Shown: piece by piece, positions 56,593 through 62,343 of the stretch
Numbering within the stretch: the first letter of the stretch is position 1
Layout of the letters: every line of letters begins with the position of its first letter
Assembly: GCA_944327845.1 (NCBI GenBank)
Contig: CALVHN010000004.1
Location: 1-64,000, forward strand
Length of the DNA: 64,000 nucleotides
Direction: 5' to 3'
From: an uncultured Bacilli bacterium
GTDB taxonomy: Bacteria; Bacillota_I; Bacilli_A; RFN20; CAG-826
Notes under the pieces: model-generated
What the model was told of the DNA's origin: nothing
Database searches by the model: none
The model's input: only the letters and a program-made list of their open reading frames with translations
Program-made: the position numbers and the translations under genes

Positions 56593-56620
56593 TTCCAATA
56601 AAATCTAATTATAAATCGTA
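56593..56620 (+). promoter_or_regulatory. ECF-type promoter of the sigma/anti-sigma operon
   Basis: TTCCAATA (56593-56600), 14 bases, then ATCGTA (56615-56620), followed by TTTATGGTG. The same two blocks with the same 14-base spacing precede the lipoprotein gene at 58305-58332. Initiation near 56627 would leave only about 9 bases before the sigma ATG and no ribosome site. Confidence 0.75.
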
Positions 56621-56635
56621 TTTATGGTGTGAATA

Positions 56636-57157
56636 ATGGAAGAGAGTTTATTAAAAAGTTACGTCACGGAAATGCAAAAAGGCAATATGGAATACTTTAA
56701 TGCTTTTTATGAAGAAACAAAAAAAGCTGTTTTTTATAATATCTTCGCTTTAACCAAATCTCATGAAATAAGCGAAGATCTTTTGCATGATACTTATGTT
56801 AAATTTTTAAAAGAAATTAAAAATATTGATTTAAATAAATCAATAGGTGGATATTTAATGATGATTTCTAAAAATATTACCTTAGATTATTTTAAAAAGA
56901 ATAATCGAATCGAATTAAATGATGAAGAAAATAAATATGTAGAAAAAGAAAATAAGAATGAATTAGATCAAAATTTATTACTTGAAAAAATTAAAGAAAT
57001 TTTAAAAGAAAAAGAGTTCCAGATTTTTGTTCTTCATGCCTTAAACGATTTAACTTTTGAAGAGATAGCTAAAATTATTAAAAGACCACTAGGAACAGTA
57101 ATTTGGTCTTACAATAATTCAATTAAAAAAATTAAAAAGGAGGTGGAAATTTTATGA
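56636..57157 (+). CDS. ECF-type RNA polymerase sigma factor
   Basis: This 173-residue sigma factor has region 2 (MEYFNAFYEETKKAVFYNIFALTKSHEISEDLLHDTYVKF, seen in pieces) and region 4 (LKEKEFQIFVLHALNDLTFEEIAKIIKRPLGTVIWSYNNSIKKIKKE, with the helix-turn-helix LTFEEIAKIIKRPLGTV). No extra domains. It overlaps the next gene by ATGA (57154-57157), the common sigma/anti-sigma arrangement. It is predicted to drive its own operon and the downstream lipoprotein gene from the shared promoter motif. The trigger signal is unknown but is probably sensed outside the membrane. Confidence 0.87.
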   Translation: MEESLLKSYVTEMQKGNMEYFNAFYEETKKAVFYNIFALTKSHEISEDLLHDTYVKFLKEIKNIDLNKSIGGYLMMISKNITLDYFKKNNRIELNDEENKYVEKENKNELDQNLLLEKIKEILKEKEFQIFVLHALNDLTFEEIAKIIKRPLGTVIWSYNNSIKKIKKEVEIL

Positions 57158-58299
57158 AAAGAATAGATGATAAAAAGATAATTGAACAAGTAAAAAAAGA
57201 AGAATCTAATTATCAAATAAAATTAACAAGTCAAGAAATTTTAAATTCCTACTATGCTTTAAATGAAATTGAACCTCAAAAAGAAAAAGAAAATAAAAAA
57301 AGAAATAGGAAAACAATAGGTTTTTCTATTTTAGGTAGTGCTTTATTAGTTGGAGCTTTATCAGCAATTATCGTTATAATTCCTAAAAATAGTAACCATA
57401 ATAATCCAAATGAAGTTAATTTTATTACCCCAAACAGTTCTAAAACTTTAACTACTGAGCTCTTAACTTTTGCAAGTTTTAATAATGATAATATTTCTAA
57501 AGACACAAGAATTTTAAATAAAATATTTAAGTTTAGAAGGGATTTTAACTTAAATTCAAGAGAAAATTCAAATTTAAGTGAAGAAACATTAAGAAATATT
57601 GTTCAAGGATATGACAAAATAAGTTTAGGAATAAATAATTTATTTAATTTAGAGAATAATTTAACTCATAAAGATTATGCTGAAACATTTAAATATAAAG
57701 ATAAAGAATATTTATATCGAACAGATTATTTTTTAGATAATCAAATTATTTCAACATTATACTATAATGATTTATCTAGTTTTGATGATGGAGATGAATT
57801 AAATAATTATTTAAATGCTTTATATTTAGTTAATAATAAATATTATGAAGTATATATAAATCAAGAAATAGAAAAAGAAGATAATGATGAGATCGAAAAT
57901 GAAATTGAAGCAATTTTTATTGGTGAAGATGAATTTTATAAAGTAAATAAAGAAGAAGAAGTTGAAGGTAATGAAAGTGAAAATAATTTTACTTATACTC
58001 AATATGATTCAATAAACGATGCTTTTTTAGATGATGATAATTATATTTACCAGGTTGAATATAATTATGAAGTAGAAGGAAATAAAGGGGAAATTGAACT
58101 TTCTATTGATGATAAATTAAACAATTTAGAATACCAATATCAACACATCACTAAATTAAGTGAAAATCATTATCGTTTTTATTATGAATATGAAGATGAT
58201 AGTTCAGATCAAGAATTTGAAGGCTATATTGAATTAGTAATAAATATCGATAATTCCCGTACTTATAGTGCAAATGGAACAACAATAAAAATTATTTAA
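57154..58299 (+). CDS. Transmembrane anti-sigma factor with extracellular sensor domain
   Basis: This 381-residue protein has a cytoplasmic N-terminus (1-50, helical, no Cys/His zinc motif), one helix (about 52-75) and an acidic extracellular domain of about 300 residues. The start overlaps the sigma stop and has the strong site AGGAGGTGG. The N-terminus would hold the ECF sigma factor. The extracellular part contains the motif VEGNESENNFTYT and a following Tyr/Asp-rich beta region that correspond to EGNESETNFEYT and its context in the lipoprotein at 58369, so the two sensor-like domains are paralogues. Very acidic composition suggests cation binding, but that is a guess. Confidence 0.75.
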   Translation: MKRIDDKKIIEQVKKEESNYQIKLTSQEILNSYYALNEIEPQKEKENKKRNRKTIGFSILGSALLVGALSAIIVIIPKNSNHNNPNEVNFITPNSSKTLTTELLTFASFNNDNISKDTRILNKIFKFRRDFNLNSRENSNLSEETLRNIVQGYDKISLGINNLFNLENNLTHKDYAETFKYKDKEYLYRTDYFLDNQIISTLYYNDLSSFDDGDELNNYLNALYLVNNKYYEVYINQEIEKEDNDEIENEIEAIFIGEDEFYKVNKEEEVEGNESENNFTYTQYDSINDAFLDDDNYIYQVEYNYEVEGNKGEIELSIDDKLNNLEYQYQHITKLSENHYRFYYEYEDDSSDQEFEGYIELVINIDNSRTYSANGTTIKII

Positions 58300-58304
58300 A
58301 AAAA

Positions 58305-58332
58305 TTCCAATAATTTAAATCTCTTAATCGTA
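58305..58332 (+). promoter_or_regulatory. ECF-type promoter of the lipoprotein gene
   Basis: TTCCAATA (58305-58312), 14 bases, ATCGTA (58327-58332), then TTTATGGTG. It matches the promoter at 56593 in both blocks, spacing and downstream nine bases, while the spacer between is unrelated. Selection on a binding site is the simplest reason. Confidence 0.78.
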
Positions 58333-58368
58333 TTTATGGTGAAGTTAATAAAAAAGGAGATTAAGAAT

Positions 58369-59250
58369 ATGAAAAAAACAAAATTATTATTAGGATTAGT
58401 ACTTGGCGTTACAGTTACTATTGGTCTTGCAAGTTGTGTTGATACTAAGTTACCAACTCACATTAATGATGGAAAATTATCAAGCAGTGAAAAATTAACA
58501 ATGCAAGCTGCTACTGGTATTAAATTATTAAGTGAAACTTCATCTGTTCTAACAAATAATATGAGAATGAAAAGAAGTATGAGCGAAGATCAAATTAATG
58601 TAGTAACTAAAATTTTACCTCAACTTGATTTAATGTTTGAAAATGATAATGCTTTTATTGGCATGGTTGAAGAAGGTGAATTTAGTATTAATGAAACTAA
58701 TTACCAATATAAAGAAACTATCACTTTTAAAGATATTAATTTAGAAGACGTAAGTTATGTTATGTATTATAACGTTGATGCTAAATTTGAAGAGCATGAT
58801 GATAAAGATGAAGTTGAAACATTTTCTCGAATAAGTGGTGTTGTAAGTTATGATAATGAAACCTACTTTAACTTTGTATCATTTACTGAAACTGAAACTG
58901 AAGAAGATGAATTTGAAGAAGAAAGAACATTTAGAATCAATGTTTCTAACGAAAGCTACGTTTTAATTGAAGAATCTAAAGAACAAGAAGGTAATGAATC
59001 AGAAACTAATTTTGAGTATACTCTTGTTGAAAATAGGAAAAAAGTCTTAAATTATTCAATTGAAGTTGAATCTGAAGGACATAAAGATAGTATTGAATAT
59101 GAAATAAATGACCAAGAATATGAAGTTACTAAAAGAGATGATCTTTATATAGTTAAAATTGGTGAAGATGATGATTTTAACGAAGAAGTCGGAAGATTTA
59201 AGAAAGTAATCGATGAAAATAACAATGTTACTTTCCAATATATTGTTTAA
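58369..59250 (+). CDS. Lipoprotein related to the anti-sigma sensor domain
   Basis: The start at 58369 was chosen over the in-frame ATG at 58336 because the site AAAGGAG (58354-58360) and a clean signal peptide with lipobox GLASC (Cys23) follow it. The 293-residue product is a surface lipoprotein of very acidic character. Its mature region aligns by eye with the extracellular part of the anti-sigma factor: a YKETITFK/YRTDYFLDN strand, a VMYYN/TLYYN strand, then the EGNESE-x-NF-x-YT motif and a Tyr-rich tail. It should be controlled by the same ECF sigma factor, and could act as a ligand-binding feedback partner or as the protective product of the stress response. Confidence 0.75.
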   Translation: MKKTKLLLGLVLGVTVTIGLASCVDTKLPTHINDGKLSSSEKLTMQAATGIKLLSETSSVLTNNMRMKRSMSEDQINVVTKILPQLDLMFENDNAFIGMVEEGEFSINETNYQYKETITFKDINLEDVSYVMYYNVDAKFEEHDDKDEVETFSRISGVVSYDNETYFNFVSFTETETEEDEFEEERTFRINVSNESYVLIEESKEQEGNESETNFEYTLVENRKKVLNYSIEVESEGHKDSIEYEINDQEYEVTKRDDLYIVKIGEDDDFNEEVGRFKKVIDENNNVTFQYIV

Positions 59251-59280
59251 ATAAAATTGGTAATCCATTATTAATTAATA

Positions 59281-59310
59281 AGGTTAAGTTAAAAAACTTA
59301 ACCTTTTCTA
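59281..59310 (+). terminator. Intrinsic terminator after the ECF lipoprotein gene
   Basis: AGGTTAAGTT (59281-59290) pairs with AACTTAACCT (59295-59304), loop AAAA, followed by TTTCTATTTTT. Confidence 0.85.
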
Positions 59311-60012: not shown

Positions 60013-60916
60013 TTCTTTTTGTTAGTAGAAGAACTATATATTAAGTTATTATCCTAAATAGTTTATAAATAGAGTTAAAGAAGGTTTTCTTGGTATAAAA
60101 AATCCTTTTAATAATAAATTAGTATTTTGAATATATTTTAAAGATGTTGATTTAATTTTATTTTGTTTTAAAAATCCTCATTTATTTTTAATATATTTAA
60201 ATGAATTAGATTCTTTATTAAATATTCCTAAAGTTTTCATATCACATTAACTCCATATAAAGAAGATATTGTGACTAGTATTGCTAAAATTAAAAAAGCG
60301 TAATTGAAGATATCAAGTATTTAGCAAAAAGATATGGAAAAACATATGTTTTTTAAGATATGAAATATTTAAAAAATAAAAAATATAATTTAAATTATCA
60401 TTTAAAAGCTTTTAGTAAATTAATTGATTTTACTCATCATTCTATTAGTAATATAGTAATTTCTTTTATTGATTTATATAAAAATGTTAAGAAAAATAAT
60501 GAAAAAATATTTAAGAATAGAAACTTTTTGCCTAAAGAAATCGATATTTTAGCTAAAGAATTTAAAAATATAACAGATAAATATAATTTAAATATTTTTA
60601 CATGTTGCAAAAAAGATGAACTATTAAGATAAGACTTTAATAAAGGAGCATATTTATTTTTCGAATATGCTTCTAAATTATTAAATATAATCGAAGTTAT
60701 AAATTAAAAAGACAAACAGTAAGAAAAGAGGAAAATATTGCATGTAATTGTGTAAAAATGTGTGATATTTGCGCTTATAATTCTTATTTATCGAAATGTC
60801 GATATTGTTATGCTAATTTTAATGAAGATAATGTAAATAATGATTATTTAATGCATGATGATTCTATTTTATTAATTGGGAAGCAAGAAAAGGATGATAT
60901 TACAAAGATTAGATGA
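60009..60916 (+). pseudogene. Decayed DUF1848 gene
   Basis: The start MILFVSRRT at ATG 60009 matches the DUF1848 N-terminus (MIxSVSRRTDIP). After one frameshift the sequence continues with FINRVKEGF, KNPFNNKL, DVDLILFCFKNPHLF, NIPKVF, IEDIKYLAKRYGKTY, then DFTHHSISNIVISFIDLYK, LPKEIDILAKEFKNITDKYNLNIFTCC, and finally the Cys motif CVKMCDICAYNSYLSKCRYCYANF and DSILLIG. At least three stops (60057, 60135, 60248) and several frameshifts break it. Where family members have Trp, this copy has stop, Cys or Leu (for example K-stop-F for EWF). It is therefore inactive. Function of the intact family is unknown; its Cys cluster suggests a metal or Fe-S site. Confidence 0.85.
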
Positions 60917-60981: not shown

Positions 60982-62343
60982 ATGAAAATAAGAAAATTAT
61001 TCGTTATCCCGATATCTATTTCTTTATTATTATTAACTTCATGTAATCAAGAACCAGAAAAAACTTATTCTTATCAATTAATGTTAAAAGCATCATCAAC
61101 TTATTTAGATGATACAAGGTATTCTGATATTAATTATAGTTTTTTAATTGATAAAGGAACTATTATTCAAGAGGGCTATCATGATTTAAAAGCAATTTTA
61201 TGTGAAACTTCTACTTTTTTAAAACCTGTTGCGATTGAATATATTACTGTTGATGGGAAAATTACTAAAAATAAAGAATTAAGCTATGAAGAGACAATTG
61301 AAAAATTAAATCCTGTTATTGAATTTTCTGATTAATTTTTTGGAGCGAAAAATTTTGATATTAATCTTTATTCAACTCCTCAACAAAGAACACTAAAGGT
61401 CACTTCTAATGAAGCAAACGTGAAAGAATCAGAATTATATAATATACAAATTTCAATTAATGATGATATTCCTCCTGAATTTGATAATAATGAATATTCT
61501 TTTGAAAGTGAAGTTGGTTATGATGGTTGGTGGGATTTTTCATCATCTGCTCAAGACGCTAAAAAAGAAATAAGAGAATATATTTTAAGTAAAGTAAATG
61601 ACAATAACTTAGAAAGCGAAATAACTTTACATTATTTTATGGATGAAAATTGTAATCAAGAATCAAGCTTTGATGAAATGATTAAAAGTGTAAGAGCTAA
61701 TCCTAATTTAATTAAAAATAATAAGATACAACCAATTACAATTTATATAAAAGCAGAAGATAACAACAACAATTTTTCAGATGTTATTAAATTTAATCTA
61801 ACATTAAGAGATAATGTTGCACCTTATTTATGTGATGAGAATTTTGAGGAAATAAAAGATCCGACACTTGGATTTAACGAAGAAAGACAATATTATCCTG
61901 ATATTTATGATGATTTAGAAAAAGCTTTTAGATCATATAATTATAAAGCTTATGATGAAGTTGAAGGTGAAATTAAACTTATTGAAGGAAACTATTCATT
62001 ACATATAAGTACTAATGGAACAATATTAAATATTTATTCAAAAAATCGTGGTACTTCGGCTAGTATTAGTGATCGTATCTCTAAAATGGTAGGAGATAAG
62101 GATGCAAGTTTTGTTTATTATCCTGAAGGATCAAGTGTATCCAAAAATCCTGAAAGAGGAATTAAATATCTTTTTATTAATACAAATGAAATTTCTTTAA
62201 CTACACCTAATATTGAAGATGTATCAGAATGGAAAGGTACTGATGGAAAAGGAAATGTCATACTTCCAACAGAGATAATCTTATATGGCCATACATATAA
62301 AGTAACAAAAGTTTCAAGTTTATTAGAAAGCTATATAAATTAA
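60982..62343 (+). pseudogene. Surface lipoprotein gene interrupted by one stop codon
   Basis: ATG 60982 opens a signal peptide with lipobox LLTSC (Cys21). The frame is open to TAA at 61333-61335 and then, in the same frame and with no further break, to 62343. Without the stop it would be a 453-residue lipoprotein. The part after the stop has an IQISINDDIPPEFD strand and NDNNLESEITLHYF, typical of Ig-like surface domains, and the sequence after it is not decayed. This is a single-mutation pseudogene, a very recent one, or a readthrough/phase-variable gene. Sequencing error is possible too. No family is recognised. Confidence 0.7.

Follow-up and report, generated by a model that had tools for sequence, protein, structure and literature searches.

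The 64,000-nucleotide stretch analysed here (the window) lies on contig C4 of a gut bacterium whose genome of 1.135 Mb is 97% complete in 9 contigs. Its plus strand carries genes for an ECF sigma factor, a putative membrane anti-sigma factor and a lipoprotein as one module, in which the sigma and lipoprotein genes have identical promoters and the lipoprotein is homologous to the ectodomain of the anti-sigma factor. We suggest that the module is a self-activating ECF stress circuit whose output is an acidic, lipid-anchored copy of its sensor domain, and that this copy may act as a sink for the ligand and as an effector that protects the cell, with negative feedback. The architecture and the predicted regulation are well supported, and we infer the ligand and the feedback; taken as a whole, this is the reading that we prefer, at a probability a little short of even. 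The features concerned are, in order along the window:

56593-56629, plus strand: promoter of the sigma gene, -35 element TTCCAATAA from 56593, -10 element CGTATT at 56617-56622
56636-57157, plus strand: ECF sigma gene, 173 aa, domains Sigma70_r2 and Sigma70_r4_2, start nearly leaderless
57154-58299, plus strand: gene of the putative membrane anti-sigma factor, 381 aa, with a short, helical cytoplasmic part and an acidic ectodomain in the model
57943-57999, plus strand: EGNESE acidic hairpin of the anti-sigma ectodomain, residues 264-282
58305-58341, plus strand: promoter of the lipoprotein gene, -35 element TTCCAATAA, -10 element CGTATT at 58329-58334
58354-58359, plus strand: strong ribosome-binding site AAGGAG of the lipoprotein gene, with no counterpart before the sigma gene
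58369-59250, plus strand: lipoprotein gene, 293 aa, lipobox with Cys23, homologue of the anti-sigma ectodomain
58966-59022, plus strand: EGNESE acidic hairpin of the lipoprotein, residues 200-218
59280-59305, plus strand: terminator-like stem-loop with a T tail, directly 3' of the lipoprotein gene

The sigma factor, for which 26 sequences were aligned, scores above cut-off with PF04542 and PF08281 (Pfam) and with the sigma70-ECF model TIGR02937 (NCBIfam). Together with the paired promoters, these family models support the original prediction of an ECF sigma module with a probable shared sigma-dependent promoter. The start of the second gene overlaps the sigma stop codon as ATGA, and its product has a single transmembrane segment at about residues 53-78 and a modelled helical N-terminus, which points to an anti-sigma factor that is probably co-transcribed with the sigma gene. 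Neither this protein nor the lipoprotein has a family match in Pfam or NCBIfam. The true start of the lipoprotein gene is at 58369 and not at the listed open reading frame start 58336, which falls within the promoter block; it is supported by the upstream AAGGAG, the signal peptide MKKTKLLLGLVLGVTVTIGLASC and the LASC lipobox with Cys23. The protein thus has the signal peptide, lipobox and +1 cysteine of a bacterial lipoprotein, and Cys23 is invariant in 27 sequences. No terminator-like stem-loop was found between the anti-sigma and lipoprotein genes.

As originally predicted, the bipartite element TTCCAATA-N14-ATCGTATTTATGGTG precedes both the sigma and the lipoprotein gene, in blocks of 37 bases. 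The two copies present compare with 0 expected from 100 shuffles of the window, and the genome has no further exact copy, so that the genome scan proposed with the prediction reveals a pair of sites rather than a motif in many unrelated places. Relaxed to CCAATAA-N13..17-NGTNTTNAT, the pattern again matches just these two sites genome-wide (1 match for the reversed-pattern control), and a still looser one adds 3 genome matches, each within an open reading frame. A broad regulon in this genome is rejected on these grounds, and a housekeeping promoter pair is rejected as well, since a sigma-70 scan gives 23 matches against 25 expected and none at the two sites. ECF target promoters typically combine an AAC-type -35 element with a CGT -10 element. 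The -10 element CGTATT of the window fits the CGT type; the -35 element is CCAATAA here and CCAACAA in certain other genera.

In 59 genomes, the strict pattern CCAATAA-N14..17-CGTATTWAT has 30 matches, mostly exactly two per genome, of which 28 lie at the sigma and lipoprotein genes of the module and 2 elsewhere, the latter equalling the 2 matches of the reversed control. In a sub-clade with CGTTTTTAT promoters, the corresponding pattern gives 13 matches, 11 of them in the module and 2 before a Colicin_V/CvpA-like gene. These last are third promoter matches in two CGTTTTTAT genomes (L228 and L229), placed before orthologous genes for a Colicin_V/CvpA-like membrane protein. A perfect intergenic match was also seen at L109:653 (genome G012), with no recognisable gene downstream.

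The regions upstream of both genes were gathered from 46 genomes with both anchors. Over this set the -35 element CCAATAA is common to the lineages, and the -10 element is lineage-specific, yet the same at both promoters within a genome; the variants include CGTATT, CGTTTT, AGTATT, TGTATT, TGTATA, CGCTTT, CGTATATA and CGTAATAT, among others. In a further group of genera (L259, L266), CCAACAA takes the -35 position before both genes. As the shuffle test ignores relatedness, it was rerun on representatives of nine lineages with sigma identity below 45%, for which -10 similarity is 8.1 of 9 within genomes versus 6.0 between them (p=5e-5). For the spacers of the same nine lineages the values are 5.2 versus 5.1 (p=0.43), without a within-genome effect. 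We read the co-variation as a probable sign that the cognate sigma factor has kept both promoters under selection for a long time, and together with the identity of the promoters it would imply positive autoregulation. The duplicated promoter with differing spacers that had been proposed earlier therefore stands with respect to the shared elements and the spacers, but not as a recent segmental duplication, because the spacers differ and the elements co-vary by lineage. One genome, G009, has two modules with unlike -10 elements, CGTATT (L057) and TGTACTAGT (L079), which suggests that the two circuits may be insulated from each other.

The resemblance of the lipoprotein to the extracellular part of the anti-sigma factor, noticed at first from the motif EGNESE-x-NF-x-YT, is genuine (22 of 58 residues identical, E=3e-4 in pairwise BLAST) and part of a homology over the full domain. 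Within-genome BLAST comparisons of the two proteins are mostly not significant alone, and the homology thus rests on profiles. In hhalign the match between lipoprotein and ectodomain has a probability of 99.3% and spans 216 columns, where a reversed profile reaches 43% and shuffled ones about 0%; with profiles built from other relatives, the values are 99.6% and 246 columns. Moreover, the lipoprotein profile independently finds the neighbouring anti-sigma ectodomains, with E-values down to 1e-27. AlphaFold2 models of both proteins (mean pLDDT 73.8 each, beta domains mostly 80-93) consist of one long helix followed by a meander of about 14 antiparallel strands. Compared by strand order, the two models agree, so that alignment and structure prediction lead to homologous profiles and matching topologies instead of unrelated folds. 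Neither model has a significant PDB neighbour by fold or by sequence, and a known fold (LolA, RseB, lipocalin) is rejected for this reason; weak similarities to ApoB, lipovitellin and Osh6 (best E 0.03) were left out of the argument.

In the acidic hairpin of the anti-sigma factors, E267 is invariant, and conservation of E269 and E276 reaches at least 90% in the alignment of relatives; the equivalents of the latter two in the lipoprotein, E205 and E212, are invariant in 27 sequences. The two domains carry net charges of about -37 and -38, and both are strongly acidic in relatives that have the lipoprotein. The comparison covers only four other lipoprotein-like open reading frames, none equally acidic, and acidity may be general among surface proteins of the group.

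The lipoprotein occurs in 123 of the 279 genomes of the order and in 33 of its 56 genera, and the three-gene order is repeated in most of the loci examined. Genomes of the same genus, as grouped in the analysis, include the MAG Candidatus Onthovivens merdipullorum. The full module with paired promoters is also found in Izemoplasma relatives and in Mycoplasmatota strain zrk2, for which the genome is complete. In a tree with several long branches and unsure deep forks, ectodomains and lipoproteins mostly fall into separate old groups. The original prediction of a sensor domain freed from the membrane anti-sigma factor is therefore upheld in terms of shared ancestry but not as a recent copy; the event would be ancient. 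An exception is L073 of genome G043, for which the anti-sigma ectodomain nests with its own downstream lipoprotein (57% identity over 104 residues, 50% over 154), although the N-terminal part is still of the anti-sigma type. This is a natural transplant, in which the domain of the lipoprotein replaced the sensor domain. In conjunction with the promoter co-variation, it indicates that the pairing is functional and that, in at least one lineage, the domains are interchangeable.

In the circuit that we envisage, an envelope signal would bind to the acidic beta-meander domain of the anti-sigma factor, which would then be cleaved and release the sigma factor. The genome encodes one site-2 protease; PrsW was considered as the site-1 protease and not found in the genome. 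The released sigma factor would fire its own promoter and that of the lipoprotein gene. The sigma mRNA would be almost leaderless, and the lipoprotein would be translated from a strong ribosome-binding site. Counted from the first base of the -10 element, the median distance to the start codon is 21 nt for the sigma gene and 39 nt for the lipoprotein gene; a sequence like a ribosome-binding site is present before the former in 5 of 25 genomes and before the latter in 24 of 26. Given this asymmetry and equal promoters, the lipoprotein should be produced in excess over the sigma factor. It could then build up outside the membrane, capture the same ligand and protect the cell, and by removing the signal it would close a negative-feedback loop. 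The strong and conserved acidity suggests a cationic ligand, for example an antimicrobial peptide, lysozyme or a polycation.

The closest precedent for such a double role is RsiV, which is both receptor and lysozyme inhibitor, so that the anti-sigma factor neutralises the ligand and its accumulation ends the response (PMC5014341). The SigV-RsiV systems of Bacillus subtilis and Clostridioides difficile resemble the module in combining an ECF sigma factor with a single-pass membrane anti-sigma factor that has a receptor ectodomain. They differ in that receptor and extra copy are here two proteins with two promoters, and the window proteins have no match to DUF4163 or DUF3298, which make up the RsiV ectodomain (Pfam, E<=1). 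The dual job of the Bacillus protein would thus be divided between two proteins. The combination of both jobs in RsiV, and the domain swap in G043, which points to equivalent function, favour a sink and effector role. Several observations count against it, among them the possibly general acidity and the absence of a significant PDB neighbour described above. Some lipoprotein genes (L072, L258, L263, L265, L267) have no sigma/anti-sigma pair recognised alongside in the stretch fetched, and a local circuit would be unneeded there. In Acholeplasmataceae (L136, L140, L142, L145, L150), the same sigma/anti-sigma pair and paired promoter are accompanied by an unrelated partner lipoprotein with an RsgI_M (DINPS) domain and a long coiled coil, and the sensor copy would thus not be essential to the circuit there.

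The main rival to a ligand sink is direct binding. The lipoprotein could be a co-regulator in the manner of RseB or MucB: it would form a heterodimer with the homologous anti-sigma ectodomain, shield it from the first protease and, since its synthesis depends on the sigma factor, shut the response off. The gene order of sigma factor, anti-sigma factor and exported protein is that of rpoE-rseA-rseB, the anti-sigma/lipoprotein pair is kept together in nearly all genomes, and homologous beta sheets with extended edges would be able to pair. The RpoE-RseA-RseB and AlgU-MucA-MucB systems also share with the module an exported third protein tied to the anti-sigma factor and a theme of envelope stress. 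However, the third protein is here a homologue of the ectodomain, a lipoprotein, and the product of its own sigma-dependent promoter, whereas RseB is not known to be homologous to RseA. MucB protects MucA from cleavage (PMC7400510). The lipoprotein matches neither the N- nor the C-terminal MucB_RseB domain (Pfam, E<=1) and has no significant fold match, and for a partner of common descent, competition for the ligand would be the more natural role. We consider this co-regulator reading unlikely.

The second rival is an output without feedback. Here the lipoprotein would be an envelope protection protein (a trap, chaperone or scaffold) of sensor ancestry and have no direct regulatory part, comparable to cellulosomal enzymes, which have modules of sensor type in common with RsgI anti-sigma factors. 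Distant lineages provide examples of such outputs, as extra CCAATAA-type promoters in Izemoplasma and Acholeplasma relatives (L201, L211, L214, L220, L197, L207) precede genes for secreted subtilases, DUF2202 proteins and another RsgI_M lipoprotein. In a Clostridia MAG (L155), an RsgI_M-bearing anti-sigma gene is followed by a CCAATAA/TTCGTTTAAT promoter and the gene for an HtrA-like serine protease lipoprotein. The theme across lineages is probably envelope quality control or defence. In Clostridium thermocellum, the sensor domains of RsgI anti-sigma factors are of the same kinds as domains in the SigI-regulated products (CBM3, GH10) (PMC4711584), a likeness to the module. In contrast, SigI falls outside the ECF factors and controls many enzymes instead of one lipoprotein, and RsgI_N and RsgI_M are absent from the window proteins according to Pfam, RsgI_M being present in the second target of the Acholeplasmataceae. 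An effector-only role is rendered improbable by the window genome and most of the genus, where the sensor-domain lipoprotein is the sole output and no other target is seen, and by the interchange of sensor and output domains in G043. Finally, an artefact, in which the promoter repeat would have been copied recently from the DNA upstream and the proteins would resemble each other by chance as Glu-rich, low-complexity sequences, could appeal to the many glutamates of both proteins and the score of the reversed profiles, but it is hardly credible in view of differing spacers, promoter elements conserved and co-varying over lineages, the long profile match, the same predicted strand order and the independent recognition of anti-sigma factors by the lipoprotein profile.

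Returning to the sensor copy as sink and effector, each component is of a known kind, and the combination is new. A search of the open-access literature, with most subscription journals outside its scope, found no description of the same layout. Tentatively, the module may represent a new class of ECF circuit in Onthovivens-, Acholeplasma- and Izemoplasma-like Bacilli, with a lipid-anchored decoy of its own sensor as dedicated output; sensor and decoy would swap domains, the promoter pair would diverge in step, and circuits would stay insulated. ECF systems normally turn on repair or resistance genes. In the genomes of about 1.1-1.4 Mb considered here, the detectable regulon comprises nothing but the switch and a copy of the sensor domain that the switch itself uses. 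Sensor-decoy feedback thus becomes directly testable on just two genes and their two promoters, and the conserved pairing provides a way into the question of which surface signals uncultured gut Bacilli perceive. The matched promoter pairs, which have diverged in step across many lineages, are natural orthogonal sigma-promoter parts.

Beyond the module, the window contains a DUF1848 protein fragment at 60360-60632 (profile positions 124-205 of 262), for which the gene has probably decayed. A lipoprotein-like open reading frame with an early end at 60982-61335 is followed by another at 61420-62343, and the two are possibly one interrupted surface-protein gene.
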